Virus record (IMG/VR): IMGVR_UViG_3300046656_000201
Span: 1-23,241 of that record
DNA length: 23,241 nt
Reading direction: 5' to 3' (one strand)
Source: a virus
Notes under the pieces: generated by a model
The model's database searches: none
Told to the model about the DNA's origin: nothing
What the model saw: the letters and a program-made list of their open reading frames with translations, nothing else
In this document: piece by piece, positions 4,899 through 21,347 of the stretch
How the letters are laid out: every line of letters begins with the position of its first letter
Numbering within the stretch: position 1 is the first letter of the stretch
Position numbers and translations under genes: made by a program

Positions 4899-5403
4899 AA
4901 TCCAACCCGACGCCCTCGTCCCCATCGACAGCGTCCGCCCTCACCCGGACAACGCCCGCGTCCACCCGCCCGAGAACATCGAGTCCATCAAGGTGTCCCT
5001 GTCCCGCTTCGGACAGATCACGCCCATCGTGATCGACGGCGAGGGGCGCATCCTGAAGGGGAACGGGACGTGGATCGCGGCGCGCGCCTTGGGGTGGCGC
5101 GAGATCCAGGCGCGCCGGATCGTCTTCTCCTCCCCCGAGGACTACACGCTGTACCGCCTCGCGGACAACCGGACGGGGGATCTGTCGCACGACGACGATG
5201 AAGTCGTCCTCGCGCAGTTGCGCCCCTTCCTGGAACAGAAGCTCGACGTCGCGGGCCTCGGGTGGTCGCAGGAGAAGATCGAGGAGATGACGGCGAACGC
5301 CCATCCCCCGGACTTCGCGCCCGGGTCCGCCCTCGATCAGTCGCCCCTCGACGTCCGTCCCGCCGTGAAGTGCCCGTCCTGCGGCCACGAGTTCCACCCG
5401 TGA
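4891..5403 (+). CDS. ParB/Srx-like domain protein
   Basis: 170 residues starting at GTG 4891, overlapping the previous gene by eight bases. The ParB N-terminal fold is evident: VRPHPDNAR (residues 15-23), SLSRFGQITPIVID (36-49), GNGTWIAARALGW (58-69, the position of the GHxRxxAAxxLG signature) and ADNRTGD (91-97). There is no ParB helix-turn-helix domain, so this is a short phage ParB-like protein, not a segregation ParB. Such domains include CTP-binding switches and nucleases. The C-terminus carries CPSCGHEF (161-168), half a zinc site. The gene overlaps the Mom-like gene by four bases (GTGA), so the two are coupled and probably work in the same DNA-modification process. Confidence 0.8.
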   Translation: MPEIQPDALVPIDSVRPHPDNARVHPPENIESIKVSLSRFGQITPIVIDGEGRILKGNGTWIAARALGWREIQARRIVFSSPEDYTLYRLADNRTGDLSHDDDEVVLAQLRPFLEQKLDVAGLGWSQEKIEEMTANAHPPDFAPGSALDQSPLDVRPAVKCPSCGHEFHP

Positions 5404-6089
5404 CCCTGCGCCTCGACTGGTGCACGCACGAGGCGGCGCGGTACGCCGTCCTGCATTGGCACTACTCGAGGCGGATGCCCCACTCGAAACTCGTGAAGGT
5501 CGGGGCGTGGGAGGACGACAAGTTCATCGGGGCCGTCGTCTTCGGACTCGGCGCAACCCCGCATCTCTGCCGCCCTTACGGTCTCACGATCCTCCAGACG
5601 TGCGAGCTCCTCCGTGTCGCGTTGACGAAGCACAAGGCCCCGGTGACGCGGATCGTCGCCATCGCCCTCCGGATGATCCACAAGCTCTGTCCCGGCCTGC
5701 GCCTCTGCATCTCGTTCGCGGACCCCGCAGAGGGGCACGTCGGGGGGATCTACCAGGGGGGCAACTGGATCTACACGGGACGCTCCCACGACTCGACGTT
5801 GTACTGGTATCGTGGGCGGTGGGCGCACGGACGCGCCGTGTCGTTGGCCGTGAAGTCGACCGGGATCGACCGGAAGACCTTGTGCCCGAGGAGGAAGATC
5901 GTGCCCGGGAAACACCGCTACATCCTGCCTTTCGACGACGAGACGCGGGCGAACGTCCGCAAGTTCTCGCTCCCGTACCCCAAGCGCGCGGATGGTGTAA
6001 AGGCCAGCACGCCGGACGTCCAGTCCGGAGGAGGCGGTTCAAACCCGACCTCCGCGCTCCAGGGGGGAGGCACAAATGGCGGCGCGTGA
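5400..6089 (+). CDS. mom: Mom-like DNA adenine-modification acyltransferase
   Basis: 229 residues from GTG 5400, overlapping the ParB-like stop by four bases. The sequence is recognisable as the Mu Mom family (GNAT fold): CTHEAARYAVLHWHYSR (residues 9-24), KLVKVGAWEDDKFIGAVVFG (30-49), CELLRVALTKH (69-79), VTRIVAIALRMIHKLCPGLRL (82-102) and SFADPAEGHVGGIYQGGNW (105-123). In phage Mu, Mom converts selected DNA adenines to the N6-glycinamide (carbamoylmethyl) form, protecting phage DNA from host restriction; the donor has been unclear. The tail after about residue 195 (SGGGGSNPTSAL) is unlike an enzyme domain: it is the translation of a tRNA-shaped sequence (5986-6061). The catalytic fold therefore probably ends near residue 195. 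Enzymatic activity is inferred from family. Confidence 0.85.
   Translation: MTLRLDWCTHEAARYAVLHWHYSRRMPHSKLVKVGAWEDDKFIGAVVFGLGATPHLCRPYGLTILQTCELLRVALTKHKAPVTRIVAIALRMIHKLCPGLRLCISFADPAEGHVGGIYQGGNWIYTGRSHDSTLYWYRGRWAHGRAVSLAVKSTGIDRKTLCPRRKIVPGKHRYILPFDDETRANVRKFSLPYPKRADGVKASTPDVQSGGGGSNPTSALQGGGTNGGA
5986..6061 (+). tRNA. tRNA-Gly(UCC)-like sequence inside the mom gene
   Basis: The 76 nt fold as a whole tRNA. The acceptor stem is GCGCGGA/TCCGCGC (5986-5992 with 6051-6057, 7 of 7 pairs). The D stem is GTGT/GCAC with loop AAAGGCCA containing the conserved GG. The anticodon stem is CCGGA/TCCGG (6012-6016 with 6024-6028, 5 of 5). The loop CGTCCAG has anticodon TCC at 6019-6021. The T stem is GGCGG/CCG-CC with one bulged A at 6048, and the loop is the canonical TTCAAAC. 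The discriminator is T6058, followed by an encoded CCA. U73, C35, C36, G1:C72, C2:G71 and G3:C70 match bacterial glycine identity. Oddities are G instead of U33 and the bulged T stem. It lies wholly within the mom frame, and the terminase Shine-Dalgarno begins at the next base. Confidence 0.75.
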
Positions 6090-8404: not shown

Positions 8405-10345
8405 GTGACCCAACCCCTCATGATCCGTTCGTACAACCCGGATCAATACGTCTGGATGCTGGAGTCGGCCTACCGCGCCGGATGGCGCGTCTTCGATCCC
8501 GACTTCGCGACGGCGTCCGACGCGGAGATCTACGAAAAGCTCCGTCGAGATCCCGACGTCGCGTCCGCCTTCAACATCCGCCTCCATGGTGTCGCCTGTC
8601 GCGACTGGCGCGTGGCCCTCTCGGGCAAGCCGTCCCTGGAGGAGAAGACGTTCGGCGGGATTGTCGAAGACGCGATGAAGGAGATCGAGGGGTTCACGTC
8701 CGCGCGCCTCGAACTCGCCCACGCGGTCATCCGTGGATCGTCGTGGGGGTTCGTCCGGTGGGGACGCCGCTTCACGCGCCTCGGTCCTCCAGGGACGCCC
8801 CGGATGTCGTGGGTCGTGCCCCTGTCGATCAAGGACGTCGACCGTCGCCGCATGAGGTACGGATTGCGGAGGAACGTCGATCCCTCGACCGGGATGGAAG
8901 TGATCGACACGCCCCTCGAAATGCGCTCCACGACGCGCGGCCAATGGGAGCGCGTCCGCGACGACGCGCCCTTCATCACGCTCACCTACCAGGACGAGGA
9001 ATGCCGCCTCGGATACGGGCGCGGCCTGATCGAGGCGTTGTACTTCTACCACTTCCTGAAAGGGAAACTCCTCACGGAAGGGATGCAGGGAATCTCCCGT
9101 TGGGCGCAGGGGATGGTCGTCCTCGGGATCGACGGCCTGCGCGAGGCGCAGTACACGAACTCGAACGACATCATCCAGTCCGCCGTGATCGACGCCCTGA
9201 AGAAGTTCCAGTCCCGCCATGTTCTCGTGAAGGACAAGACCGACGACCTTGAGATCAAAGAGTCCTCGGGGTCCGGGAACGACATGGTCCTCGAATTCAT
9301 CCACGAGATGAACCGGGCGATGCGCGTCCTCGTCCTGGGGAGCGATCTCCCCTTCGGCGGGGACAGGGGCAAGGGATCGACGGAGATGGCGGACGCGCAG
9401 GCGGCGGTCTCTGCCGAACTGATCGACTTCGACCGCGAGCTCCTGGACGAGGCGATCACGAAGTTCATCATCCGGAAATTCGTCTGGTACAACCGCCCGA
9501 ACCTCCAGAAGCTCGGGATGCTCGGGATGAGAATCCCGCGCTTCACGTCCATCAACGAGAGGTTGGAAGACCCGGAGGCGGCGGCGTCCGTCTTCGAGAC
9601 CATCCATCGGAACGGGTTGGCCGTGCGGAGGGATGAACTTTACAAGAAGGTCCGCTACAGCGTGCCCATCGAGGGCGACGACATCATCGAGGGTTCGGAG
9701 GAACCGGATCTCGACGGCCTCTTCGGGATGCCCGGGATGGGCGGCGAAGAGGACGGAGACGAAGGCGGCGGGGAAGATCCGACGAAGAAGGACGGGAAGT
9801 TCCCGCCCGCGAAGGGCAAGCCGGAAGCGAAGCCGAAGAGGAAGCCCGGGTCCGGATCGTTCCGCCGCGCGTTCCTGTTCAACGCAATGCTCGCGCATGG
9901 ACAACGCAGGGAGGAAGAGCCGATGAACCTCACGATCAACAACGCGCCCGCCCCGGCCCTCGCGCCCGCCCCTCAGACGATCAACATGAGGGTCCAGATG
10001 CCCGAGATCCCGGACGTGCAGGCGGCGAGGGACCGCGAGAAGATGCTGCGCGCGGAGATCGATGAGATCCACAAGAGGTTCGGCGAGGCGATGGCGCGTC
10101 CCGTCGACGTCCACGTCGAGGCACCCAAGGTCTTCGTCCGTCCGCAGATCACCGTCGAGGCGGCGAAGGCCCCGGACGTCCGACTCGAGGTCGCGCCTCC
10201 TCCTCCCGCGAACGTCCAGGTCACCGTCGCCGCGCCTCCCCCCGCGAACGTCGTCGTCAACATCCCGGAACAGAAGGGGAAGAGGTTCGGGTTCCAGTAT
10301 GACAAGGACGGGAAGCTCAAGGGCGCGGAGAGCACCCCGAAATGA
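8405..10345 (+). CDS. Portal protein (DUF935/Mu gp29-like) with long C-terminal tail
   Basis: 646 residues from GTG 8405 (CGGAG site). Residues 1-450 form the portal core: RRDPDVASAFNIRLHGV followed by WRV in the N-terminal wing, LELAHAVIRGSSWGFV, PLSIKDVD, a central segment LGYGRGLIEALYFYHFLKGK, and LGSDLPFGGDRGKGSTEMADA, the loop-plus-helix typical of DUF935 portals. The portal forms the dodecameric DNA gate at one capsid vertex. After about residue 445 an acidic Gly-rich linker, a Lys/Pro stretch and then a tail with a short helix and Ala/Pro-Val repeats (APPPPANVQVTV, APPPANVVVNI) follow. The tail has its own internal start (9923). Its stop overlaps the next ATG by four bases. Confidence 0.85.
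   Translation: MTQPLMIRSYNPDQYVWMLESAYRAGWRVFDPDFATASDAEIYEKLRRDPDVASAFNIRLHGVACRDWRVALSGKPSLEEKTFGGIVEDAMKEIEGFTSARLELAHAVIRGSSWGFVRWGRRFTRLGPPGTPRMSWVVPLSIKDVDRRRMRYGLRRNVDPSTGMEVIDTPLEMRSTTRGQWERVRDDAPFITLTYQDEECRLGYGRGLIEALYFYHFLKGKLLTEGMQGISRWAQGMVVLGIDGLREAQYTNSNDIIQSAVIDALKKFQSRHVLVKDKTDDLEIKESSGSGNDMVLEFIHEMNRAMRVLVLGSDLPFGGDRGKGSTEMADAQAAVSAELIDFDRELLDEAITKFIIRKFVWYNRPNLQKLGMLGMRIPRFTSINERLEDPEAAASVFETIHRNGLAVRRDELYKKVRYSVPIEGDDIIEGSEEPDLDGLFGMPGMGGEEDGDEGGGEDPTKKDGKFPPAKGKPEAKPKRKPGSGSFRRAFLFNAMLAHGQRREEEPMNLTINNAPAPALAPAPQTINMRVQMPEIPDVQAARDREKMLRAEIDEIHKRFGEAMARPVDVHVEAPKVFVRPQITVEAAKAPDVRLEVAPPPPANVQVTVAAPPPANVVVNIPEQKGKRFGFQYDKDGKLKGAESTPK
9923..10345 (+). CDS. Possible nested protein from an internal portal start
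   Basis: An in-frame ATG at 9923 lies eight bases after GGGAGG, as good a ribosome site as any in the window and not expected in the middle of a gene. It would give a 140-residue protein beginning MNLTINNAPAPALAP, with a short helix (about residues 33-55) and beta-prone Val/Pro repeats. As I recall, other phages encode similar small Pro/Val proteins as a separate gene just after the portal. Whether it is made separately, fused, or both is not decided by sequence. Confidence 0.45.
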   Translation: MNLTINNAPAPALAPAPQTINMRVQMPEIPDVQAARDREKMLRAEIDEIHKRFGEAMARPVDVHVEAPKVFVRPQITVEAAKAPDVRLEVAPPPPANVQVTVAAPPPANVVVNIPEQKGKRFGFQYDKDGKLKGAESTPK

Positions 10346-11505
10346 ATCTCCTCGGTGCCGTCAATTACGACCCTTCCTCTTCGGTCACGAAGTCCATGGC
10401 CTCGCTGCTGGCCATGACGGCGTTCGACACAACAAATCTCCGCGTTACCGCCACGGTGCCAGCGAGCGGAAAAGTGTTTTGCCGAATGCGCGTCGGCTTC
10501 GCGGCGAGTGCCGCAACCTTTCGCACTCTTTTCGGTGTGATGAATGGTGCCTCCGTGCTGGCTCGCCAAATCCCGGCCCTCACTCAGCCGCTTACGGGCG
10601 GATCGCTGTACGCCGAATTCGTCATCGTCGGCCTGACGCCGGGCGCATCCGTGAACTTCGACGCGGCCTATAGCGTCGAAGTAGTTCTTGCGGCCAGTAC
10701 GCTCAACTACGGCGGTCCCGACAACACGACGACGAACGACGCATGGGGCGGTTTCTGCTTCGAGATTTGGGACCCTCAGCCGCAAACCACCACGGGCCAA
10801 CTCAGCGTTGACGCCAACGGGCGCGTGGACGTAATTAAGGTCGCGGGCACCACCCAAACGGCAGGCGACATTCCCGCGCGGCTCCCTGCGGCGTTGACGG
10901 CGGGCGGGAACATGAAGGCGGACGTCCTCGCGATTGAGGGCGCGGACCCGACCGACACGATCCGAGATTCCATCCTCACGGACGCGACTCTCTTCGCAGG
11001 CGCGAGCGTGGCCGCGATCAAGGCGAAGACGGATCTCATCCCCGCAGGAGGACCTCCCGCCGCGAGCGACTACACGGCGGCGCGCGCCGCGAAGATCGAC
11101 AACCTCGACGCGACGATCTCCTCCCGTCTCGCGTCCGCGTCCTACACCGCGCCCGACAATGCGGGGATCGCGGCGGTCAAGGCGAAGACCGACAACCTCC
11201 CTCCCGATCCCGCAGACGCTTCGGACATCGCCGCCGCCTTTGCCGCCGTCCCCGCCGCCGTATGGTCCTCTGGATCGAGGACCCTCACGTCGTTCGGGAC
11301 TCTCGTCGCGGACATCTGGGCGTCCGTCCTGGAGGTCGGATTCAGCGCGTCCCATTTGATCCGCGTCATCGCGGCGGCGGTCGCAGGGAAGACCACCGGA
11401 GGCGCGACGGGATTCACGGCGCGCAACGTCTCCGACACGGCGGATCAGGTCGTCGGGACCGCAGACGCGGACGGGAACCGGACCCCGACGTCCCACGGGA
11501 GCTAA
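10342..11505 (+). CDS. Putative virion appendage/structural protein, mosaic
   Basis: 387 residues, with ATG overlapping the portal stop by four bases. Residues 1-190 look like a beta-rich domain (many Thr, Ser, Val and Gly) and are encoded with codon habits unlike the rest of the window. From about residue 191 on the sequence returns to the local style and has an Ala-rich, repeat-like region: AAIKAKTDLIP (near 223) and AAVKAKTDNLP (near 276), with AARAAKIDNLDATISSRLAS between. The C-terminal LIRVIAAAVAGKTTGG...DADGNRT pattern is one I associate with phage tail or appendage proteins of environmental phages. Host-contact or virion decoration is inferred; the exact structure is unknown. Confidence 0.65.
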   Translation: MNLLGAVNYDPSSSVTKSMASLLAMTAFDTTNLRVTATVPASGKVFCRMRVGFAASAATFRTLFGVMNGASVLARQIPALTQPLTGGSLYAEFVIVGLTPGASVNFDAAYSVEVVLAASTLNYGGPDNTTTNDAWGGFCFEIWDPQPQTTTGQLSVDANGRVDVIKVAGTTQTAGDIPARLPAALTAGGNMKADVLAIEGADPTDTIRDSILTDATLFAGASVAAIKAKTDLIPAGGPPAASDYTAARAAKIDNLDATISSRLASASYTAPDNAGIAAVKAKTDNLPPDPADASDIAAAFAAVPAAVWSSGSRTLTSFGTLVADIWASVLEVGFSASHLIRVIAAAVAGKTTGGATGFTARNVSDTADQVVGTADADGNRTPTSHGS

Positions 11506-12457: not shown

Positions 12458-12675
12458 GCGGACCCCACAAGCATCGTTGGCAGTACGCGCAGATGAACCA
12501 CCATCTCTCCTCGGGCGGACCTCATCCGCAGATGCGCGAGTGTTCCGAGTGCGGTAAGGCGGACCTCCGGATGGTCTGCGCGCCCGGAGTTCCCTGCGAG
12601 AAGTGCGTCAACGCGAAGTGCGTCTGTTCCTGCCATGGCCCCTCGTTCCCGAGGACGAGGCAGATCCACGCATGA
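12454..12675 (+). CDS. Small Cys/His-rich putative zinc protein
   Basis: 73 residues from GTG 12454, overlapping the previous stop by four bases (GTGA). Eight cysteines (30, 33, 42, 48, 51, 56, 58, 60), plus His5, His7, His17, His18, His24 and His61, suggest one or two zinc sites. The first half resembles a CxxCG zinc ribbon. Its coding identity is supported by start/stop overlaps at both ends. Function is unknown; a nucleic-acid- or protein-binding adaptor is the usual possibility. Confidence 0.7.
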   Translation: MSGPHKHRWQYAQMNHHLSSGGPHPQMRECSECGKADLRMVCAPGVPCEKCVNAKCVCSCHGPSFPRTRQIHA

Positions 12676-13352
12676 TGTCCCTGGACGAGCTCGCGGGGAT
12701 CTGCGACGGGGTCGCGCGGGGCCTTCCCCTCTTCGTGATCGGGGGAGGTCCGTCCGTGAAGGGCCTCGACCTCTCCAGGATCTCGGGGTTCCCCCGGATC
12801 GCCGTGAACATGAGCTTCGTCCTGGGGGCGGACGTCGTCCTGATCGGCGACTCGAAGGTCCGACGCGAACTGATCCCCTCGAGTCCGGATCTCGTGGGCG
12901 CGTGGGCGGACTTCCGGGGTCTGAAGATCATGGTCCGCTTCGAGCAAGAGGCCGTGAAACCGGAGGACGTCCCGGACATGGTCCTCGTCCCTGCGGTCGA
13001 GAAGTGGACGACGTCTCTCCGGGATGGACTGATCAGATCCACGAATACGGGGATGGCGGCGATCAACCTCGCGGACGTGATGCGCCCCTGGACGATCTTC
13101 CTCCTTGGGTTCGATCTCGTCCCGGTGGAACCCCTCACGTCGAACTGGCACGACTTCTACAAGAACTTCAAGAAGCCGGACGACTACAGATCCCACGCGG
13201 AGTCGGTCTACCAGAACATGATGACGGACTTCCTGAAGAGATGTTCCCCGCGTTCGCCTGTCGTGAACTGCAACAGGGACTCGCGTCTCCGGATGTTCCC
13301 GTTTTCGACATTCGACGATGCGGTTCTTGCGGCCCAAGGCGCGATGAAGTAG
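12672..13352 (+). CDS. MptE-like / DUF115-like protein of glycan metabolism
   Basis: 226 residues from ATG 12672 (four-base overlap). FVIGGGPSVKGLDL (21-34) is the nucleotide-sugar-type loop of the DUF115/MptE-like Rossmann fold, followed by IAVNMSF (43-49), ADVVLIGDSK (53-62) and NTGMAAINLADV...IFLLGFDLV (125-150). Relatives of this fold include 6-hydroxymethylpterin pyrophosphokinase MptE, flagellin-glycosylation Maf proteins and phage or bacterial sugar-transfer proteins. It opens the 7.6 kb cassette of glycosyl- and methyl-transferases, which favours a role in glycan transfer over pterin synthesis. The catalytic activity is not fixed by sequence. Confidence 0.7.
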   Translation: MMSLDELAGICDGVARGLPLFVIGGGPSVKGLDLSRISGFPRIAVNMSFVLGADVVLIGDSKVRRELIPSSPDLVGAWADFRGLKIMVRFEQEAVKPEDVPDMVLVPAVEKWTTSLRDGLIRSTNTGMAAINLADVMRPWTIFLLGFDLVPVEPLTSNWHDFYKNFKKPDDYRSHAESVYQNMMTDFLKRCSPRSPVVNCNRDSRLRMFPFSTFDDAVLAAQGAMK

Positions 13353-13357
13353 AACGT

Positions 13358-13376
13358 CCGGACACGAAGCGTCCGG
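13358..13376 (+). promoter_or_regulatory. Palindromic operator-like site 5 in the cassette
   Basis: CCGGAC-ACGAAGC-GTCCGG is a perfect 6-bp inverted repeat. Its core GGACACGAAGCGTCC (13360-13374) matches sites 1 and 3. It fills one of the very few gaps in the rightward transcript, between the MptE-like stop and the ATG at 13384, and overlaps the GGAG ribosome site. As RNA it could hide that site; as DNA it could mark an internal promoter for the glycan cassette. Confidence 0.5.
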
Positions 13377-13383
13377 AGTGAAC

Positions 13384-14322
13384 ATGGAAGACGTCGTCAA
13401 GGTCGTCACGATGCAGGGTCTCGGGGATGCGTTCGCGTCCCGGCCCACGATTGCCGCCCTCGTCGAGAGGCACGGTCCGATCTACATCGAGACGTGCTGG
13501 CCGCAGGTCTTCTCCGACTTCCGGGCGCGCGGCCTCGCGAAGTTCCTCGCCCCCGAACCTACGCCCCTGCGGGCGCAGAAGAGGAACGCGATGGCGCGTT
13601 CGTCCGACTACTTCGACTTCGTCTTCCCGAAGACCGTGATCCGTCTCGGGTATTCGACGGACGGATTCAGGACAGGGAAGACGATCCCGGACATGATCGC
13701 GGAGAGCGCGGGCGTGGAGCCTCGGTGGGATATGTTCCGCCACCAGTTGTGGCGATGGGAGGAACGTCACGCCCTCTCGGTCGGGGTCTATCGACTTCCC
13801 ACGGTGAGGACGGAGTACCACAACACCGCGAGGAACCCCGCGCCCGGGATCATGCCCTTCGTGATGGGGTGCATCGCGAACGTCTTCAAGGGCATCGATT
13901 GGGTCCACTTCAACGACCTTTGGGAAGGGGAGACGCTCGCGGAGGAGGACATCACCGGAGGCGCGAAGATCACGAAGGGCGAATGGGGATTCGACTCGAT
14001 CTTCTCGTTCATGGAGAGGGCCGTCTGCGTCGTCTCCCCCGTGTCCTGGATGGCGTGGGCGGCGGCGTGCATCGGCGCGCCCACCGTCTGCGTCTCGGGC
14101 GGGTACGCGAACCCTCGGCAGATCTTTGGGTCCCTGGGGATGAAGTGCAACAACTTCGCCGTCCTGGTCCCCGATCCCTTCTGCGCGTGCCTCGATCCAG
14201 TCCACGAATGCAGGAAGACGATCACGCTCGACACGGTCGGCGCGATGATGAAGATGATCGTCAAGTCGTGGTTCGACTTCGGCCTCTACGGATGCACGCC
14301 TCGGAAGGGAGTCCGGAAATGA
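13384..14322 (+). CDS. GT9-like (heptosyltransferase-type) glycosyltransferase
   Basis: 312 residues. ATG 13384 is preferred because GGAG lies five bases upstream; GTG 13378 is the alternative. N-terminal KVVTMQGLGDAFASRPTIAAL matches the opening of GT-B heptosyltransferases (G-LGD motif, like FAD/ADP-heptose transferases). The C-terminal domain has CVVSPVSWMAWAAACIGAPTVCVSGGY, the position of the GT9 donor-site segment (usually DSGxxHLAxxxGxP), with the Asp and His replaced. It probably adds a sugar to a polymer or surface glycan, but the altered donor motif means donor or activity may differ. Eleven Cys residues are notable for a cytoplasmic enzyme. Confidence 0.65.
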   Translation: MEDVVKVVTMQGLGDAFASRPTIAALVERHGPIYIETCWPQVFSDFRARGLAKFLAPEPTPLRAQKRNAMARSSDYFDFVFPKTVIRLGYSTDGFRTGKTIPDMIAESAGVEPRWDMFRHQLWRWEERHALSVGVYRLPTVRTEYHNTARNPAPGIMPFVMGCIANVFKGIDWVHFNDLWEGETLAEEDITGGAKITKGEWGFDSIFSFMERAVCVVSPVSWMAWAAACIGAPTVCVSGGYANPRQIFGSLGMKCNNFAVLVPDPFCACLDPVHECRKTITLDTVGAMMKMIVKSWFDFGLYGCTPRKGVRK

Positions 14323-14567
14323 GCACGAACGCGAAGAACGCGGAGGAATTCGCGAGGGAGATCCTCGCCGCCTTCGAGTCGATGTCCGACGCGCCCGGCG
14401 TTCAAGACGTGATTCCTCTCCTGCGGGACTCGGTGAAGCGGATCGAGAAGTACGGGATCTGTCCGTTCGCGGAATACTCGTGGGAGAACAAGGCGAGCGG
14501 ATCTCTCCAGGATTTGATCGACGGGTTCGGAGGGCGTGAAGCGATCCGCAGATTGTTGCCCGTATGA
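14319..14567 (+). CDS. Hypothetical helical protein, 82 aa
   Basis: ATG at 14319 in a four-base overlap with the GT9-like stop. The product is mostly helical and acidic in its first half (NAEEFAREILAAFESM, VIPLLRDSVKRIEKYG), with a C-terminal helix GGREAIRRLLPV. No motif is recognised. The precise start/stop overlaps on both sides support a real gene. Confidence 0.65.
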   Translation: MSTNAKNAEEFAREILAAFESMSDAPGVQDVIPLLRDSVKRIEKYGICPFAEYSWENKASGSLQDLIDGFGGREAIRRLLPV

Positions 14568-14695
14568 GCCGTCGCCTGCGAGACGTACAACGCAAGCGCA
14601 GGATCAGGAAACGGGCGCGTCGATTCAAGTTCTGGAGGATGCGTTTCGGGTTCGGGATCTGCCTTCCTTACGGAGCGATCAAGGTGAATTCATGA
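14564..14695 (+). CDS. Tiny Arg-rich basic peptide, 43 aa
   Basis: ATG 14564 overlaps the preceding stop by four bases, and its TGA overlaps the next ATG by four bases, the same coupling as throughout the cassette, which is the main support. The peptide has about 14 Arg/Lys in its first 25 residues (SRRLRDVQRKRRIRKRARR), then a short hydrophobic end (FGFGICLPYG). It could bind RNA, DNA or acidic membrane surfaces. The frame may instead simply be a translational bridge between genes. Confidence 0.5.
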   Translation: MSRRLRDVQRKRRIRKRARRFKFWRMRFGFGICLPYGAIKVNS

Positions 14696-15450
14696 AGACC
14701 GCCGTCGTCGTCACGACGTACAACCGTCCCGCGTGCCTCGCACGGTCGCTCCCGTACATCATGATCGCGGCGCGAAAGGTGAATGCGCCCGTCCTTGTGA
14801 TCGACGATGGATCTCCGGATGCTTCGGACTACGCGAGGGAAGGCGCGTCGATCTACGGCGCGAGTTTCATCGGTCTCCCCTGGAATCGCGGTCTCGCCGG
14901 GGCGATGAACATCGGTCTATCGTTCTTCCTCGCAGACCCGGAGATCGAGGCGATCCACTACTTCCAGGACGACGTCGAAGTCGACCCTCTCGCGCTCGCG
15001 GCGATCAACGATGTCCTCGCGCAAGTCGGGGACTTCTGCGTCACCGGACACGACGCGAAGGAACATCACGCGAAGCCGCATTCTCCGATCTGCGATTCGC
15101 CCTTCGGTCCGATCTGCGGGATCATGACGCGCCTCCGTCCTTCGTGCCGCGCGACCCAGATGTCCGCGCTTCGTTCGGCATGGACGAAGGTGATGCCGAT
15201 CCGCTCGAAGGGTCTCGGTCTTCCGAAGCGTGTCCCCCGCGCGCCGAACGATCCGGAACAGAGGGGCGAGGGGTCCTCCGTCGACTGGTGGATCGTGCGG
15301 GACGCGCCTCGCCGTCTCGACACGATCTGCATCCCTGGACTCGTGCGGTCGTTCTCGCACAAGGCAGAGGATTCGACGTGGGGCAATCCGCAAATCGCGG
15401 GCGAGGACGGACCTCTCCACCGCGAGGCGATCAAAGGATGGGTGAAATAA
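14692..15450 (+). CDS. GT2-family glycosyltransferase (GT-A fold)
   Basis: 252 residues from ATG 14692. Classic GT2 features are present: VVVTTYNRP at the N-terminus (residues 5-13), VLVIDDGSPDAS (34-45, nucleotide-sugar Asp pair), GLPWNRGLAGAMNIGL (61-76) and YFQDDVEVDP (90-99) supplying the metal-binding DxD-type acidic residues. It is shorter than many GT2 enzymes but has a complete GT-A core. A C-terminal region with W-W-DAP residues probably shapes the acceptor site. It uses an activated sugar to extend a glycan. No membrane segment is present, so it acts in the cytoplasm. Confidence 0.82.
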   Translation: MKTAVVVTTYNRPACLARSLPYIMIAARKVNAPVLVIDDGSPDASDYAREGASIYGASFIGLPWNRGLAGAMNIGLSFFLADPEIEAIHYFQDDVEVDPLALAAINDVLAQVGDFCVTGHDAKEHHAKPHSPICDSPFGPICGIMTRLRPSCRATQMSALRSAWTKVMPIRSKGLGLPKRVPRAPNDPEQRGEGSSVDWWIVRDAPRRLDTICIPGLVRSFSHKAEDSTWGNPQIAGEDGPLHREAIKGWVK

Positions 15451-15755
15451 TGGGACAGGCAAAACAGAGAAAGCTCGCAGGGACCTATCCCGTCCAGGAC
15501 GGGACGCGCCCGATGACGGACGCGAGGAAGTCCGGAAAGTGGAACCCGTCGTGTCGGAAATGCCACGGGACGGGCGTCGTCTCCTATTACGTCGAAGGCA
15601 CGGAGACGAAGAAGGTCGCGTGTTCCTGCGAGTTCAAACAACTCACTCCAGCGGAAAAAAAGGGCGTCGACGAACAGAGGAACATCGACGACATCCGCGC
15701 GGCGGTGGACATCGGGGTCGCCCACGCGCAGTTCGACGCGGAGAAGAAGTCGTGA
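15450..15755 (+). CDS. Small zinc-knuckle protein (CxxCHGTG)
   Basis: 101 residues. The ATG at 15450 shares its A with the preceding TAA. A basic start (MGQAKQRKLAG) leads to SCRKCHGTGVV (34-44), the repeat unit of DnaJ-type zinc domains, and a second pair Cys58-x-Cys60. Only one such unit is present, so a single zinc site is likely and this is not a full DnaJ. A charged helix follows. The role is unknown; it may be an adaptor for neighbouring enzymes. Confidence 0.7.
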   Translation: MGQAKQRKLAGTYPVQDGTRPMTDARKSGKWNPSCRKCHGTGVVSYYVEGTETKKVACSCEFKQLTPAEKKGVDEQRNIDDIRAAVDIGVAHAQFDAEKKS

Positions 15756-16324
15756 ACGGCGCGCGCCAACTCGCGCGGGACTTCATCGCACCCCTCATGA
15801 TCAACGGGACGCGCGTCCTCGACGTCTGTTGCGGGGATCGATGGGTCGAGAAGGAATTCACAAAGATCCTCGGGAACAGCGGGCATTACGAGGGCATGGA
15901 CAAGAAGGATCACGACGACCTGACAATCGAATTCGAGAAGTGGCCTACCTCGATCACCGATTGCGACACGACCGGAGACGACGAGGATGGTTGGGATCTC
16001 ATCCTCTCGATCTACGGCCTCCAGCATCTCCTCGCGGAAGAGGCGCGCGTCTGGACTCTCCTCCGCAGGATCGCGAGGCCGACGACGCGGTTCGCCTACG
16101 TCGGACGTCCCGCCCTCATGTCGTGGCGCGAGATGGATCGACAGGACCCATTGAACGCATACAGCCAAGCCGGGTTCCGAGGTCTCGCCCTCGCCTCCGG
16201 GTGGTCCGTCCTGTCGTGGCGCGAGTTCCTCTACTCGTCGGACGGGTACGATGAGGCGAAGGACCTTCACGTCACGAACGGAAACCCCAACGCCTTCGCC
16301 GCCCTCATGGAGCCTCTCGAATGA
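15752..16324 (+). CDS. SAM-dependent methyltransferase-like protein
   Basis: 190 residues from GTG 15752, coupled by a four-base overlap. RVLDVCCGDRW (21-31) is the SAM-binding motif I, with Cys residues where Gly is more usual. GMDKKDHDDL (48-57) is at the acidic end of strand 2, and WDLILSIYGLQHL (81-93) is at motif IV with the helix after it, as in small class I methyltransferases. The target is unknown; the cassette context suggests a sugar or glycan. The replaced glycines lower certainty that it is an active methyltransferase. Confidence 0.65.
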   Translation: MNGARQLARDFIAPLMINGTRVLDVCCGDRWVEKEFTKILGNSGHYEGMDKKDHDDLTIEFEKWPTSITDCDTTGDDEDGWDLILSIYGLQHLLAEEARVWTLLRRIARPTTRFAYVGRPALMSWREMDRQDPLNAYSQAGFRGLALASGWSVLSWREFLYSSDGYDEAKDLHVTNGNPNAFAALMEPLE

Positions 16325-16926
16325 AGATCCAGCATCTCGGAACGGACTACGGAGGGTGGTGGATCGACGTGGATCTTCTTCCCGAGGAGGGCGTGATCAT
16401 CGACGCGGGGGTGGGGACGGACATGACCTTCACCGAGGCCCTCCACGAATTGAAGCCCGGAATCCGCGCCGTCCTGATCGATCACACCGACGAGTCCGCT
16501 GAATACGTCCTGAAACACCGCGCGCATCCGTGGGTGACGTTCATCAAGTCCGCGCTCATCACGTCGAGGCACGAGGGCGCGGTCGAGATCTTCCGTCACA
16601 AGACGGCGGGCTCGGAGTCGGTCTACAACGACCACAACTTCGTCAACCCCGAGAATTCCTACACCGTTCCGGGCGTGCATCTCGGAGATCTCGTCCGGGA
16701 GCACAAACCTTTCCTCGTGAAGCTCGACATCGAGGGAGCGGAATACGGCGTCATCCGCGAATGTCTCGGCGTGCCTCAAGTCTGCGTCGAGTTCCACCAT
16801 CGGATGATGAAGAGGTTCACGGAGGCAGACACGAACGCGGCGATCCAGTTCTTCCTTGACCACGGATACCGCCTCGCCCATCGCACTCCGACCGACGAGG
16901 TCCTCCTCATCCTGGAGAGAACATGA
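16321..16926 (+). CDS. FkbM-family methyltransferase
   Basis: 201 residues in four-base overlaps on both sides. The hallmark FLVKLDIEGAEYGVI (131-145) is the FkbM signature; VIIDAGVGTDMTFTEAL (25-41) is the SAM-binding motif I region. FkbM-type enzymes O-methylate sugars or small glycans (the name comes from FK506 biosynthesis) and are common in phage and bacterial polysaccharide loci. Here it would methylate a sugar made or transferred by neighbouring enzymes. Confidence 0.85.
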   Translation: MKIQHLGTDYGGWWIDVDLLPEEGVIIDAGVGTDMTFTEALHELKPGIRAVLIDHTDESAEYVLKHRAHPWVTFIKSALITSRHEGAVEIFRHKTAGSESVYNDHNFVNPENSYTVPGVHLGDLVREHKPFLVKLDIEGAEYGVIRECLGVPQVCVEFHHRMMKRFTEADTNAAIQFFLDHGYRLAHRTPTDEVLLILERT

Positions 16927-17495
16927 GCATCGTCCACGACCTGCGTCTCCTGGAGATCGACGGCTGGATGGAGGAGGACGAGCTCGAGTTCCTTCACGCC
17001 ATGGCGTCCGCGTGCACCACGGGGATCGAGATCGGCGCGTTCAAGGGGCGGTCGACGTGCGCCCTCGCTCACGCCCTAAAGGACAAGAAGGACGCGCGCC
17101 TCTCCGTGATCGACACCTTCGAGGGGACGGGGACGTCGCGCGAGGCAGAGTTCAAGGGCCACCCGGAACGTCTCTTCCGGGAATTCATGGAGAACCTCGG
17201 GGAACGAGATCTCGCGGGGGTCGTGATCCCCTTCCTCGGATCGTCCGGGGATCGCGTCCTCGTGAACCACTTCGAGGACGCCTCGGTCGACTTCCTGTTC
17301 ATCGACGGATCGCACGACAGGGAATCCGTGACGCGGGATCTCGCCCTCTGGACGCCCAAGGTGAAGAAGGGCGGCGTCCTCTGCGGACACGATTACCACG
17401 AGACGTGGCCCTCCGTCGTCGAGGCCGTCGACGAGTTCTTCGTGGGCGCGAAGGTCGAGAACCCCGTGGGCGGGATCTGGAAGGTCACCAGATGA
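16923..17495 (+). CDS. Class I methyltransferase (Methyltransf_24/TylF-like)
   Basis: 190 residues from ATG 16923 (four-base overlap, GGAGAG upstream). IEIGAFKGRST (35-45) is motif I of the Methyltransf_24 group, SVIDTFEGTG (61-70) closes the second strand, and FLFIDGSHDRESVTRDL (124-140) is the metal-binding/catalytic segment seen in macrocin O-methyltransferase-like proteins. GGVLCGHDY with its His-Asp pair follows. It probably methylates a hydroxyl of a sugar. It is the third methyltransferase in a row, suggesting a polymethylated glycan. Confidence 0.8.
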   Translation: MSIVHDLRLLEIDGWMEEDELEFLHAMASACTTGIEIGAFKGRSTCALAHALKDKKDARLSVIDTFEGTGTSREAEFKGHPERLFREFMENLGERDLAGVVIPFLGSSGDRVLVNHFEDASVDFLFIDGSHDRESVTRDLALWTPKVKKGGVLCGHDYHETWPSVVEAVDEFFVGAKVENPVGGIWKVTR

Positions 17496-17797
17496 AGGAC
17501 GCATGGACATTGAAACCCGGGTCGAGGAACTGGAATCTCCGCGCGAGTTACTCGATGAAGCGCACGAAGACGAAGACGGTCCACGTCCTGTTCGTCCTGA
17601 AGACGGTCTGGATGACACCGAAGGATGCCGCCGCTCTTGTGAAGGAAACGCCCTACGCCTTCATTCTCACGGCAGAGGACGAGGCGCAGTTGAAAGAGAA
17701 CGAACGCAGGACGCGGGAACTCTGTCGTCACGTCAAGGCGGCGGCGGAAGCGTGGAAGCGAATGGACTCGCGGGTCCTCCTGGGGCTACTCAAATGA
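17492..17797 (+). CDS. Hypothetical protein, 101 aa
   Basis: The ATG overlaps the preceding stop and the TGA overlaps the next start, each by four bases. A basic N-terminus (SMKRTKTKT) is followed by a hydrophobic strand VHVLFVLKTVW and a helix MTPKDAAALVKE. A charged, probably coiled helix covers residues 60-92. The piece VWMTPKDAAAL resembles VWMTPKEIAAV in the ribbon-helix-helix protein at 4569, so a shared DNA-binding fold is possible but weakly supported. Confidence 0.65.
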   Translation: MKDAWTLKPGSRNWNLRASYSMKRTKTKTVHVLFVLKTVWMTPKDAAALVKETPYAFILTAEDEAQLKENERRTRELCRHVKAAAEAWKRMDSRVLLGLLK

Positions 17798-18510
17798 GAT
17801 TCGTGATCCGCGTCGACGACTTCGGATGGACGGGAGACGGAGATCCCGAGAACGCGCCGATCAAGCGCGTCGACCGTGGGTTCGTCCTCGCGAAGAAGTT
17901 TCACGACGCGATGCAGGGCGTCCCGTACCTCGCGGGCGTGATCCCGTCGACCGCAGATCCCGAGGCCGTCTCCTGGATCGAATCGAAACCCGCAGGGATG
18001 TCCGTCGCGCTCCACGGGTGGAACCACCAGATGCGGGAAGGGGCGCGAAACGAATTCGAGGGGATGGGCGAGGAGGGATGTCGCGCCCTCTTCTCCTCGG
18101 GGATGAAGAGGATCGGGACGACGCGCCACCTGATCCCGCCCTTCAACGCGATCACGGAGCCGATGGTCCGCGCCGCGTGGCACGAGGGCATCCGCTTCAT
18201 TTGGGGCGCGCCGTCGAACTGGAACACCCCGCCGTCTCCATACGAAATGGAGAAGGGCGTCGTCTTCGTCCCGTCCTGGAAGCCCCTCTACGGCGCGTGC
18301 GGGTGGGGACAGACGCCGGGAGATCGCGCCCTCTGGCAAGCGATGGCGGAACTCGGGAACGGACACGGGATCGCGGTCGTGACCCTGCATCTCCCTTGGG
18401 AGGTCGCGCGAGATCCGGAATTCAAATGGGTCCGCTACGTCGTCGAAACTCAACGCCGCTGGATCATGTCACCGGAGGAATTCGCCGATGCTCTACCATC
18501 TCGTCTCTAG
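17794..18510 (+). CDS. Polysaccharide-deacetylase-like (CE4/NodB-type) protein
   Basis: 238 residues from ATG 17794. RVDDFGW (6-12) gives the catalytic base and metal-binding Asp pair, ALHGWNHQM (72-80) the metal-binding HxxxH, IPPFNAI (114-120) the Arg/Pro loop region, and TLHLPWE (197-203) the last catalytic His. This order matches the NodB/CE4 superfamily, closest in style to DUF2334-type deacetylases. CE4 enzymes remove acetyl groups from N-acetylated sugars, for example in peptidoglycan or surface glycans. There is no signal peptide, so it acts inside the cell on a precursor. Length is that of one catalytic domain. Confidence 0.75.
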   Translation: MRFVIRVDDFGWTGDGDPENAPIKRVDRGFVLAKKFHDAMQGVPYLAGVIPSTADPEAVSWIESKPAGMSVALHGWNHQMREGARNEFEGMGEEGCRALFSSGMKRIGTTRHLIPPFNAITEPMVRAAWHEGIRFIWGAPSNWNTPPSPYEMEKGVVFVPSWKPLYGACGWGQTPGDRALWQAMAELGNGHGIAVVTLHLPWEVARDPEFKWVRYVVETQRRWIMSPEEFADALPSRL

Positions 18511-19369
18511 GACGTGGGCGCAGGGAGGACGGACGGGCGTCCCTCGGTTCGACTACTACATCGGGAAGGCGTTCCCGGATCTCGTCTCGATCACCCCGCA
18601 GGACAAGATCGCCCTGTCGTCCGAGGACGTCGTGATCACGGACAACCACCTCGGACTCGAGGTTCCCGAGGACGTCCCCTGCGTCGTGGTTCACCACGGG
18701 TGCGCGCCTTATCACTACCACGTCGATCCCGTCTGGAGGAACGACGAGACCCTTCGGATGGCGGCGGATCAGAGGCGCGTCCTGAAGAGGCCGAACACCG
18801 TCTTCGTCGCGCCGTCCGCGTGGGTGATGAAGGAATTCTCGAAACTCGCGGACGAGTCGTATCCGTCGCGCGCCTTCTTCATTCCCCATTGGGTCCCGGA
18901 GATCCCCGCAGGCGCGGACGGTCCTCGGATCTGGCGCGGGCCGCGCGTGATCGGGGACTGGAGGACTCAGAACAAGGGGTCGGAGATCTGGCCCTTCCTC
19001 GCGTCCTCGATGCCCGACTTCGAGTTCGCCCCCCTGAAATACGATGAGAACTCGGAGGAGGCGCGCCGCCAGTTCTACCGGAACGCGGACGTCTACCTCT
19101 GCCTCTCGCTTTCGGAGGGGTGCCCTTACTCCGTCCTGGACGCGGAGGCCGCGTCCCTTCATATCGTGACAACCGAGACCGGATCGTGTCACGAGCTCGC
19201 GCAGGGGGGCGCGATCATGATCAGGGATCGGAACGACGTCGCCGAGATCCAGAAGGCGATCACGCAGGCGAGTCTCCGCACGATGCGCCGCGTCAATATG
19301 TTCCGGTCCTTCCACTTCGCGAGTTGGCGCGCGGCGTGGGAGGACGTCATCGCCAAGGCGCGGAAATGA
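18488..19369 (+). CDS. GT-B (GT4-type) glycosyltransferase
   Basis: 293 residues from ATG 18488, 23 bases inside the previous gene; the GGAGGAATT ribosome site is within that gene's end. The C-terminal domain shows FIPHWVPEI (131-139), DVYLCLSLSEGCPYSVLDAEA (201-221), the E-G-P...E donor-phosphate motif of GT4-like enzymes, and TTETGSCHELAQGGAIMI. The N-terminal half contains VVVHHGCAPYHYHVDP. It is shorter than typical GT4 enzymes (350-400) but has both lobes. It transfers a sugar from a nucleotide donor, presumably in the same glycan pathway. Confidence 0.78.
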   Translation: MLYHLVSRTWAQGGRTGVPRFDYYIGKAFPDLVSITPQDKIALSSEDVVITDNHLGLEVPEDVPCVVVHHGCAPYHYHVDPVWRNDETLRMAADQRRVLKRPNTVFVAPSAWVMKEFSKLADESYPSRAFFIPHWVPEIPAGADGPRIWRGPRVIGDWRTQNKGSEIWPFLASSMPDFEFAPLKYDENSEEARRQFYRNADVYLCLSLSEGCPYSVLDAEAASLHIVTTETGSCHELAQGGAIMIRDRNDVAEIQKAITQASLRTMRRVNMFRSFHFASWRAAWEDVIAKARK

Positions 19370-20244
19370 AGACCCTGTTCGGCCTCCACGGAGGACTCGG
19401 GAACTCGATCTTCTGCCTGCCTGCGATCAAGTCGCTGCATCGGAACGGGGACGACGTTTCCCTCTGCGTCCAGGGGGACTACGAGATGGTCGAACTCTGG
19501 CGTCGATGCGTGTACGTCCAGGAGGTCTTCGGACCTTCGCAGGATCTTCCCGCGTTCGACCTCTACCTCTGCGGCCAGTACCTCCCGTCTTCAATGCACG
19601 GGCGCGACGTCCGCTACTGCGGATTCCCAAAGGGAACGACGAAATACGAACGTCCCGAGTGGGAACAGATCATGAGGCGCGCCGAGTGCCGAAGCATCTT
19701 CCCGGATGTCGTGGACTGGATTCGAGATCACGGAGAGGGACAGTCCTTCGACTTCTTGTGGGACATCGGGATCGTGCCCGGGTGCAAGCCCGGGGACGAA
19801 TGGTCGAGGAAGACGTGGCCGGGGATGTCGTCCATCGCGAGCGTCTTCCGGGAACAGGATCTCTCGGTCGCGGCGTTCGGCCTGCGCGAGGACTTCGAGA
19901 AGGTCCCCGCCCTCCTGAAGTACCACGTCGGTCCTTACCCGCTCGAACGGATGCCCGAACACCTTCGTCGATGCCGCGTGATCGTGGGGACCGACTCCGG
20001 GATCGTCCACCTTGCGTCCTCCCTGGGGGTCCCCTGCGTCGTGATCTACACCGCGACGTCTCCGATCAAGGGCGACCCGGTCGGAGATCCTGCGACGATC
20101 CGGAAGATCTCCCTCAACATCCCGTGTTCCCCCTGCCAGTCGACGCCTCGCTGGAAGGAATGCACGAACTGGATCTGTCGTCAAATCCCGGTGGCGGACG
20201 TGGTGTCCGCCGCCTATGATCTTCTCTCGAAGCGAAAGGGGTAA
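19366..20244 (+). CDS. GT9-family (heptosyltransferase-like) glycosyltransferase
   Basis: 292 residues, four-base overlap with the GT-B gene. FGLHGGLGNSIFCLPAIKSL (5-24) is the GT9 N-terminal loop and strand; RVIVGTDSGIVHLASSLGVP (204-223) carries the D-S-G-x-x-H donor site, followed by CVVIYTATSPIKGDP, typical for ADP-heptose-type transferases. The intact motif contrasts with the first GT9-like gene at 13384, so the two may be donor-specific partners or one may be inactive. It closes the glycan cassette; the co-chaperonin gene starts three bases later. Confidence 0.85.
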   Translation: MKTLFGLHGGLGNSIFCLPAIKSLHRNGDDVSLCVQGDYEMVELWRRCVYVQEVFGPSQDLPAFDLYLCGQYLPSSMHGRDVRYCGFPKGTTKYERPEWEQIMRRAECRSIFPDVVDWIRDHGEGQSFDFLWDIGIVPGCKPGDEWSRKTWPGMSSIASVFREQDLSVAAFGLREDFEKVPALLKYHVGPYPLERMPEHLRRCRVIVGTDSGIVHLASSLGVPCVVIYTATSPIKGDPVGDPATIRKISLNIPCSPCQSTPRWKECTNWICRQIPVADVVSAAYDLLSKRKG

Positions 20245-20247
20245 CGC

Positions 20248-20592
20248 ATGGAAGCCTCGGATCTGAAAAACCTTCGCCCCACGGACGACAACGTCCTCGT
20301 CAAGTTGCGCGAGGCCCCGAAGAAGGTCGGGCGGATCATCCTCCCCGACGTCGCCAAGGACAAAAAGCAACAGGTCGCCGACGTGATCGCGGTCGGCCCC
20401 GGGAAGTGGTATCTCCACGAGAACGGGAACTGCAAGCGCGCGCCGATGCAGGTCTCGCCGAAGGACGTCGTGATCTGCGGACCCTACGCGGGCGCGGCGG
20501 TCGTCATCGACGGCACGCCCTATCGACTCATCCACGAGGACCAGATCCTCATGATCATCGACGATCCGGACCTCGTGAAGGTCCCCGCGTGA
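20248..20592 (+). CDS. Phage co-chaperonin, GroES/Cpn10-like
   Basis: 114 residues from ATG 20248 with AAAGGGG upstream. LRPTDDNVLVKLREAPKKVGRIILPD (9-34) matches the Cpn10 opening (xPLxDRVxV...TxGGIILP). VADVIAVGPGKW (43-54) is the conserved AxVxAVGPG strand, VSPKDVVICGPYAGAAVVIDG (68-88) matches the GDxVxFxxYaGxEVxxdG segment, and YRLIHEDQILMII (91-103) is the end strand. Co-chaperonins cap GroEL; phage versions such as T4 gp31 enlarge the folding chamber for the capsid protein. Here it sits between the glycan cassette and the Mu F-like head gene, consistent with capsid folding. The mobile loop is intact-looking. Confidence 0.88.
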   Translation: MEASDLKNLRPTDDNVLVKLREAPKKVGRIILPDVAKDKKQQVADVIAVGPGKWYLHENGNCKRAPMQVSPKDVVICGPYAGAAVVIDGTPYRLIHEDQILMIIDDPDLVKVPA

Positions 20593-21347
20593 TGGACGCC
20601 GCGCAGCGAGAGTTCGAGATCCTTCGGGACCACGCCACGACGGTCTACACCGAGGAACTCTCGACTCTCGGGCGCGCCGCGTTCGATGAGAACTGGACGA
20701 AGGTCGACGCGCAGACGGACAAGATCTCGCAACTCCTTTCGGACACGATGGTCCTCTTCGACCTCCACGGTCGACGCAGGATCTTGATCGAGTCCGACAA
20801 GTTCAAGGAACCCACGGAGGAGGAGAAGAAGAAGGTCCTCTTCTGGACGGGATCTCTCCTCGTCTTCCGGGATCAACCCGTCGTCCCGCGCGTCCCGTTC
20901 GGAGAGGCGGTCAAGGATCTCCTCTCGCGCGAACCCCGTCTGAAACGGGGGTACAAGGAAGTCCAGGAGGCCTACTCGAAGTCGCACGTCTTCGCGCTCG
21001 CGAAGAAGGCGCGCGAGGAGACGGTCTCCCGCGTCCAGGATTACATCGCAGGGGCGACGGAGAGGGGGACAGGAACCATCCGGGCGGGGAAGGTGATCGC
21101 ACGGATCGGGGGATGGTCGGAATCCTACGGGCGCATGGTGTACCGCACGAACGGCGCGACGGCCTATTCCGGAGGACGATTCCAACAGGCCTTCGACATC
21201 GACGTCCGCGCGAAGGTCGCGGGGTTCGAGCTCGTCGGGATGAAGGACGCGGACACGCGCAAGAACCACGCGGCGGCGCACGGTCTTTTCGCTCCCTGCA
21301 CCCACCAGATTTGGCAACGATTCTCGTCGCCGCTCGGGTACAACTGA
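20592..21347 (+). CDS. Mu F-like head morphogenesis protein, ended by an in-frame UGA
   Basis: 251 residues from ATG 20592, sharing one base with the preceding stop. The helical N-terminal two thirds lead to the Mu F core: MVYRTNGATAYSGGR (182-196) and DADTRKNHAAAHG (219-231), then WQRFSSPLGYN (241-251). In the family the last segment continues as GYNCRC. Here the next codon is TGA, followed in frame by codons for Arg-Cys-Gly and then 54 more open codons (to 21521). So the conserved first Cys codon is replaced by TGA. Mu F-like proteins are minor capsid or head-completion proteins beside the portal. The gene may be nonsense-truncated, read through, or a sequencing error. Confidence 0.85.
   Translation: MDAAQREFEILRDHATTVYTEELSTLGRAAFDENWTKVDAQTDKISQLLSDTMVLFDLHGRRRILIESDKFKEPTEEEKKKVLFWTGSLLVFRDQPVVPRVPFGEAVKDLLSREPRLKRGYKEVQEAYSKSHVFALAKKAREETVSRVQDYIAGATERGTGTIRAGKVIARIGGWSESYGRMVYRTNGATAYSGGRFQQAFDIDVRAKVAGFELVGMKDADTRKNHAAAHGLFAPCTHQIWQRFSSPLGYN

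Follow-up and report, generated by a model that had tools for sequence, protein, structure and literature searches.

A putative virion-protein glycosylation cassette in the head gene region of a phage, with a Maf-like and TibC-like enzyme pair that recurs across phages

In this report, we describe a sugar-modification cassette of twelve intact, plus-strand and mostly overlapping open reading frames (ORFs; positions 12672-20244) in a 23,241-base stretch of virus DNA, hereafter the window, which comprises the whole of the linear and probably fragmentary IMG/VR virus record IMGVR_UViG_3300046656_000201. The cassette lies between portal/appendage genes and GroES/MuF genes, as the original prediction had it, and is probably a cytoplasmic module for the glycosylation of virion proteins. 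Three targets had been proposed, namely virion proteins, the host surface glycan, and an unusual DNA sugar; the first is favoured here by where the genes of the two core enzymes lie in different phages and by the predicted folds of these enzymes, and the other two appear less likely. The core enzymes, referred to below as sia and GT9a, are as follows.

12672..13352, plus strand: sia, a glycosyltransferase of MptE/DUF115 fold, Maf/GT42-like (phrog_4603, 7e-15; AF2 fold; family profile)
13384..14322, plus strand: GT9a, a glycosyltransferase of GT9 fold, TibC-like (phrog_6804, 2e-25; AF2 fold)

The sia protein matches the PHROGs family phrog_4603, which is labelled alpha-2,3-sialyltransferase, and has no Pfam match at E <= 1, with two of its relatives matching Pfam MptE-like below the cut-off. 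A model predicted by AlphaFold2 (AF2) from a 34-sequence alignment (pLDDT, the predicted local distance difference test, 77) has as its nearest structure in the Protein Data Bank (PDB) the Maf protein 5mu5 (Z 13.6, root-mean-square deviation 3.9, 196 aligned), followed by an archaeal pterin kinase of MptE type (Z 10.9), SteA (Z 10.3), and the sialyltransferases CstII/CstI (Z 9.5-9.7); the sia family profile also matches the CstII sialyltransferases (4e-5). Maf glycosyltransferases act on flagellin. A pterin (MptE) function was rejected as the main explanation, since Maf fits the model and CstII fits the profile better. General family-library scans of 20 window proteins revealed no pterin-pathway gene. 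The earlier label "MptE-like" holds for the fold, given the Maf and MptE-type kinase scores, but is misleading as to function, since Maf is closer to the protein, and sialyltransferases are closer to its family, than pterin kinase is.

GT9a has no Pfam match at E <= 1 and is assigned through phrog_6804, a family listed with unknown function, and through its predicted fold. Its AF2 model (30-sequence alignment, pLDDT 87) is nearest in the PDB to TibC (4rb4/4rap, Z 20.1 over 260-262 residues), with the GT9 protein 3tov (Z 17.9) and WaaF/WaaC (Z 17.1-17.2) next. TibC is a protein heptosyltransferase, described as having Asp-110 as a candidate base, an iron finger formed by Cys 339, 342, 358, and 370, and an N-terminal beta-barrel of residues 1-97 (eLife 2014, PMC4358343). 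In the GT9a family (30 sequences), D15 is invariant, as are C267, C269, and C276 of a motif near the C-terminus, C-x-C-x4-H-x-C-x-K (residues 267-278; alignments A1 and A6), in which H274 is present in at least 90% of sequences. Judged by alignment end points, an arithmetic estimate and not a residue alignment, D15 corresponds to about TibC 109-110, and the Cys motif falls near the TibC iron finger. The model shares with TibC/BAHT enzymes the GT9-type catalytic fold, with D15 as the likely catalytic Asp, but not the N-terminal beta-barrel, because model residue 1 aligns at TibC 95. In both core models, the nearest solved structure is that of a protein glycosyltransferase, TibC in one case and Maf in the other.

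The two core genes accompany each other well beyond the window. Viral contigs were scanned with alignment A1, yielding 161 GT9a relatives, of which the best 80 loci were kept; a sia-side search yielded 182 relatives, of which again the best 80 loci were kept; and a genome scan with GT9a gave 30 loci, almost every one from a record bearing a proteobacterial name. These relatives are distant homologs (~25-30%), many contigs are fragments, and related loci do not represent independent events. A sia gene was found in the fetched stretch of 78 of the 80 viral and 29 of the 30 genome loci retrieved through GT9a (107/110 together). In control loci, sia was present in 2/80 terminase-first and 3/80 Methyltransf_24-first loci and GT9a in none of the 80 of either kind, a comparison that favours the GT loci, since the profiles were trained on them. 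In profile searches of the 80 viral loci together with four phage records, 82 of the 84 had sia on the strand of the GT gene, the exceptions being L007, whose stretch begins 0.6-0.8 kb before the GT gene, and L035, which is without sia. A Methyltransf_23 gene is present in 78 of these 84 loci, and the methyltransferase also occurs in 21 of the 30 genome loci; sia, GT9a, and this methyltransferase are referred to below as the trio. Furthermore, sia and GT are fused in one open frame in 5/84 viral or phage loci and in 4/30 genome loci, and a relative of the Methyltransf_24 gene at window position 16923 directly follows GT in six loci (L030, L059, L184, L190, L192, and L194). Mirror-tree results were mixed: over 40 loci, distances were correlated for all three pairs within the trio (r 0.39-0.61, reached in 0 of 2000 shuffles), but this did not extend to every pair in the loci with a D3-type capsid gene described below. 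Three trio copies were observed on two contigs of Pantoea stewartii CCUG 26359, two of them on one contig (L171, L173, and L177), and a locus labelled Chryseobacterium sp. (L176) carries a trio of a type otherwise seen in Pantoea and its relatives, which may reflect contamination or mislabelling.

Phage records were searched by tblastn as well: GT9a matched 26 of 50,697 records, 20 of them from Pseudomonas phages, at 24-28% identity among the 25 matches listed, and sia matched one, an uncultured phage. A single-protein scan of viral contigs with GT9a returned no relatives, unlike the scan with alignment A1.

The genes surrounding the pair are often those of virion assembly. Neighbours were compared with PHROGs in 41 representatives (70% identity), taking up to two genes on each side and any genes inside the trio. 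The major head protein family phrog_10 accounts for 18 of the 66 upstream neighbours, with further matches there to families of head maturation protease, head-tail adaptor, portal, or tail fibre; among 90 downstream or intervening genes, matches include head-tail adaptor Ad1 (17), the head-tail adaptor family phrog_442 (14), Neck1 (11), and head closure Hc1 (10), with overlapping counts. At the level of whole loci, a head or tail gene of the type found in phage D3 is present in 69/80 viral GT, 14/30 genome GT, and 54/80 sia-first loci, compared with 5/80 Methyltransf_24-first and 3/80 terminase-first control loci. The low terminase-first figure indicates that the D3-type reference set is narrow, and these locus counts are therefore lower bounds. 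In D3 itself, a cultured Pseudomonas phage, orf7 (annotated as alpha-2,3-sialyltransferase), orf12 (hypothetical protein), and orf13 (methyltransferase) make up the trio and are scattered among the genes for major head protein, head-tail adaptor, head closure, HK97 gp10, and tail terminator; sia stands between major head protein and head-tail adaptor, and GT and methyltransferase stand before the HK97 gp10 gene. The trio lies within or near structural genes in Psp6 and Mulvp2, and its three genes are side by side outside a recognised structural block in Klebsiella phage Eowyn. Where a D3-type capsid gene is present (13 loci), the distances between sia proteins track those between capsid proteins (r 0.46, 8/2000 shuffles) and those between GT proteins do not; close linkage may be the whole cause of the sia-capsid correlation, although acceptor specificity could also explain it.

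Outside the trio, the partners of sia vary from phage to phage, so the suggestion of the original prediction that the genes build one defined modified sugar chain is not borne out. Most informative is L260, in which a head block of terminase, portal, protease, major head protein, and Neck1 (PHROGs) is followed by sia (phrog_4603, 4e-19) and then by a cytidylyltransferase (PF02348, 5e-9), a GT8 gene, a Methyltransf_24 gene, a second methyltransferase, an unassigned gene, and NeuB (PF03102, 5e-42), a set consistent with sia there using a cytidine monophosphate (CMP)-nonulosonate as donor. The same region (L260:8770-17542) holds, by eye, another NeuB-like gene at 16715. L201 has GT11, GT2, Methyltransf_24, a weak GT34-like gene, FkbM, and GT2, followed (by eye) by protease- and capsid-like genes and sia. 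L288 has Methyltransf_24, a weak GT25-like gene, GT2, a by-eye portal gene, a collagen-like repeat protein, a weak methyltransferase, sia, and a GT2-type gene; in L207 and L259, by eye, a methyltransferase-like gene and a further unassigned gene accompany sia ahead of gp10. Proteins with collagen-like Gly-X-Y repeats are encoded right behind a portal-like gene, near sia/GT genes, in two loci (L288:9394-10449 and L290:6935-7414, partly by eye).

In the window, GT9a is followed by ten further genes, and the predicted content of the whole cassette is five glycosyltransferases, three methyltransferases, one weakly supported deacetylase, and three small ORFs.

14322..14567, plus strand: small ORF of no assigned family (1 nt overlap with the preceding gene; Pfam only 0.21, no PHROG match)
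14692..15450, plus strand: GT2 glycosyltransferase (PF00535, 5e-9)
15450..15755, plus strand: small ORF with a Cys-rich stretch, no assigned family (weak DUF5351, 0.04)
15752..16324, plus strand: class I S-adenosylmethionine methyltransferase, weak Methyltransf_23 (PF13489, 6.5e-4, below cut-off)
16321..16926, plus strand: FkbM-type methyltransferase (PF05050, 2e-9)
16923..17495, plus strand: Methyltransf_24 family methyltransferase (PF13578, 5e-22)
17492..17797, plus strand: small ORF of no assigned family (no Pfam or PHROG match)
17794..18510, plus strand: putative CE4/NodB-like (DUF2334) deacetylase (PF10096, 1.3e-4, below cut-off)
18488..19369, plus strand: GT-B (group 1) glycosyltransferase (PF13692, 3e-8; WbnH 4xyw, 1.6e-4)
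19366..20244, plus strand: GT9 glycosyltransferase, GT9b (PF01075, 4e-13; GT9 3tov, 1e-4)

The family labels given to these genes earlier stand above the curated Pfam cut-offs for GT2, FkbM, Methyltransf_24, GT-B group 1, and GT9b; those of the first methyltransferase and the CE4-like gene fall below them, and a phmmer comparison of the CE4-like protein with solved structures gave chance matches only. By eye, GT9b has Asn in the sequence GLGN where GT9a has the Asp of GLGD. The highest 19-residue hydropathy mean among the twelve cassette proteins is 1.67, with no convincing membrane segment, and the enzymes look soluble on this sequence measure.

Relatives of the outer genes were scarce. The Methyltransf_24 gene matched 56 of the 50,697 phage records by tblastn, four of them over most of its length. 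A phmmer search over the fetched loci found no matches for FkbM, the first methyltransferase, GT2, or CE4 and one for GT-B; for FkbM and the first methyltransferase, the comparison covered these loci and the family libraries. A GT-B scan returned one contig, which was already known; a single-protein scan of viral contigs with GT9b found no relatives; and over the fetched loci GT9b had weak BLASTP matches only (25-26%, E ~5e-5), on the opposite strand in L009-L012.

Tight coupling of the genes, claimed at the outset, is evident at the twelve junctions from sia to groES, nine of which overlap (by 4 nt in six cases, 1 nt in two, and 23 nt in one), with gaps of 3, 31, and 124 nt at the remaining three. 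A gap of 214 nt precedes the cassette if the ATG at 12672 is taken as its start. Upstream are terminase, Mu-type portal, and appendage-like genes, and downstream are GroES, MuF, and then a gene with weak protease/scaffold matches; the flanking genes that matter most here are the following.

8405..10345, plus strand: Mu-type portal protein (PF06074 Portal_Mu, 4e-32)
10342..11505, plus strand: portal-adjacent appendage-like protein, Ser/Thr-rich, candidate acceptor (18.9% Ser+Thr)
20248..20592, plus strand: GroES co-chaperonin (PF00166 Cpn10, 2e-17)
20592..21347, plus strand: MuF-like head protein (PF04233 Phage_Mu_F, 2e-9)

That the cassette had been inserted into the head module is not borne out. 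A recent insertion was rejected as unproven: G+C content in 1 kb steps ranges over 0.617-0.651 in the cassette and, at 8-12.5 kb and 20-23 kb on either side of it, over 0.623-0.671, without a step at the borders, and no syntenic phage lacking the cassette was found among the relatives searched. A terminase scan did find relatives, none of which matches the window portal or appendage at E <= 1e-3, which makes an empty-site comparison impossible. Five terminase relatives read gene by gene had no glycosyltransferase among the annotated names in the stretches shown, and a single-protein scan of viral contigs with the window portal gave no relatives. Some other features of this neighbourhood recur or stand out: groES-like genes also lie downstream of terminase in the relatives L086, L109, L110, and L121; a ParB-like gene and then a Mom-like DNA modification gene (PF25680, 2e-41) occupy 4891-6089 just upstream of the window terminase, and such a pair likewise precedes terminase in L118; and a tRNA-Gly gene (anticodon tcc, 5984-6061) lies within the 3' end of the Mom reading frame, whose tail may be mere read-through of it, as the Mom family match stops at residue 195 of 229.

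The appendage-like protein is a candidate for the glycan acceptor on the basis of its composition, its Ser+Thr content of 18.9% comparing with at most 12.9% in the 21 other window proteins counted; its gene overlaps the portal gene by 4 nt. Of the 23,286 open frames in the loci searched, only one is related to it, L185:11056-12300 of a Mesorhizobium record. This frame (phmmer 7e-15) follows a sia-GT-methyltransferase trio at a distance of 1.5 kb and offers a lead, although the match is repetitive (bias 37 of 56 bits).

Taken as a virion-protein glycosylation module, the cassette might work as follows. Soluble phage enzymes, encoded and presumably expressed along with the head proteins, would act in the cytoplasm, before virions are assembled or while assembly proceeds, and furnish at least one virion protein with a short modified glycan. 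Sia and GT9a would transfer sugars either onto Ser/Thr side chains or onto what the other enzyme has made, additional glycosyltransferases would extend the glycan, and the methyltransferases and the deacetylase-like enzyme would trim it. The acceptor would be a protein, specifically a virion protein (capsid, appendage, or connector), and the donor of sia may be a nonulosonate, that is, a sialic-acid-like sugar. No NeuB- or cytidylyltransferase-type gene was recognised in the window, so host nucleotide sugars would be used.

A number of observations weigh against this reading. Regarding the enzymes, the sia fold also matches the pterin kinase, and fold similarity reveals no substrate; WaaC and WaaF, which act on lipopolysaccharide (LPS), also match the GT9a fold; and the window sia is, by eye, without two His common in its family (H-W-H-G-x-H becoming N-W-H-D-F-Y), which, like the Asn of GLGN in GT9b, means that either enzyme may have altered activity. 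Regarding location, HNH endonucleases are also frequent among downstream or intervening neighbours, several enterobacterial loci adjoin tail-fibre or terminase genes outside the capsid block, and 27/110 GT-first and 26/80 sia-first loci have no D3-type head or tail gene in the stretches covered, by the narrow reference set. Regarding partnership, sia occurs without GT9a in 60/80 sia-first loci (with it in 20/80), and GT and sia distances are uncorrelated across those 13 loci that carry a D3-type capsid gene (r -0.24, a value matched or exceeded in 1800 of 2000 shuffles); strict co-inheritance of the pair thus does not hold. Regarding the outer genes, GT2, CE4, GT-B, and GT9b have no tblastn match in the 50,697 phage records, and in L342 (6874-11396) relatives of Methyltransf_24 and GT-B adjoin each other near genes that by eye are not head genes, a case in which strict linkage between the outer cassette genes and head genes does not hold; the last gene there, GT9-like by eye, has no BLASTP match to GT9b.

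Some of the same evidence would suit enzymes that, in infected or lysogenic cells, alter surface structures of the host (LPS, capsule, flagellum, or pilus) and thereby shut out other phages. WaaC and WaaF, close in fold to GT9a, act on LPS, the GT-B protein matches the O-antigen enzyme WbnH, and glycosyltransferases of the pelagiphage tail-fibre region have been interpreted in one account as altering the host surface (PMC7029224). We nevertheless consider this role unlikely, since the cassette has no convincing membrane segment and hence no flippase- or polymerase-like protein, and the core pair lies in or beside the structural blocks of different phages and is also found in the 265 kb phage Eowyn. 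Serotype-conversion gtr cassettes, by comparison, combine a membrane flippase with a membrane glycosyltransferase, neither of which is apparent from the hydropathy of the twelve cassette proteins.

Phage DNA glycosylation relies on a base-hydroxylating or activating enzyme in the genome, and no hydroxymethylase, base kinase, or similar base-activating gene was recognised among the 20 plus-strand window proteins scanned, the record being a fragment. Together with the best matches of the core pair to Maf and TibC and its frequent position next to capsid and connector genes, this makes glycosylation or hypermodification of phage DNA against restriction a rather remote prospect for the cassette, even though the Mom-like gene, with the ParB-like gene just upstream of the terminase genes, indicates that the phage probably modifies its DNA, and virus glycosyltransferases that hypermodify DNA do exist, as the title of Pyle 2024 indicates. 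It is more improbable still that the cassette is a passenger set of sugar genes with no single function in a permissive spot of the head operon: partner genes do vary widely between phages and several outer window genes are without relatives in the collections searched, but all twelve frames are intact, mostly with overlaps of 1-4 nt, and the core pairing holds in 107/110 loci and extends to sia-GT fusions.

Glycosylation of virion proteins remains the favoured function. As a kind of system it is known; within the open-licence literature searched, where no description of the sia-GT9a pair or of its head-operon place was recognised, this combination of enzymes and its repeated location look new. 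If true, virion glycosylation would be widespread among phages of Gram-negative hosts, beyond the reports from a few mycobacteriophages, a two-enzyme signature in or near head operons would mark it, and phrog_4603 and phrog_6804 would gain meaning. A broader proposal, which we regard as possible yet doubtful, is that many Gram-negative tailed phages build a nonulosonate glycan on a capsid, connector, or appendage protein, which is started or capped by a Maf-like enzyme linked to the capsid gene and finished by methyltransferases together with a TibC-like heptosyltransferase; the window, with as many as nine enzymatic steps, would be an elaborate example.

Compared with known enzymes, sia has its best fold match in Maf but is only 226 residues long, against 632 in the solved Maf chain, and it shares with the GT42 sialyltransferases CstII/CstI both the profile match and a fold score that is lower than that for Maf. 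GT9a, with its best fold match in the TibC/BAHT heptosyltransferases, likewise has a Cys-rich motif towards the C-terminus, but one of three Cys and a His at tighter spacing, whereas TibC has four Cys. In the mycobacteriophages Che8, Corndog, and Myrna, phage glycosyltransferases glycosylate capsid and tail tube proteins (Freeman 2023, as cited in PMC12363180, PMC11256854, and PMC12619734); phage glycosyltransferases are otherwise interpreted, in the accounts at hand, as DNA- or serotype-modifying (PMC12619734, PMC7029224). Pfam, PHROGs, and predicted folds indicate that the window, too, encodes its own glycosyltransferases. Its cassette is placed in the head operon, whereas those of Maravista, a relative of Che8, are described near the genome 3' end (PMC11256854), and the organism tally of the 26 phage records matching GT9a by tblastn includes no mycobacteriophage. 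D3 and Eowyn, whose trio genes are known from annotation, have a homologous core pair, in D3 within the head-tail gene block; there, the system comprises three genes, whereas the window adds nine ORFs, and its weak Methyltransf_23-like gene lies 1.4 kb behind GT9a without overlapping it.

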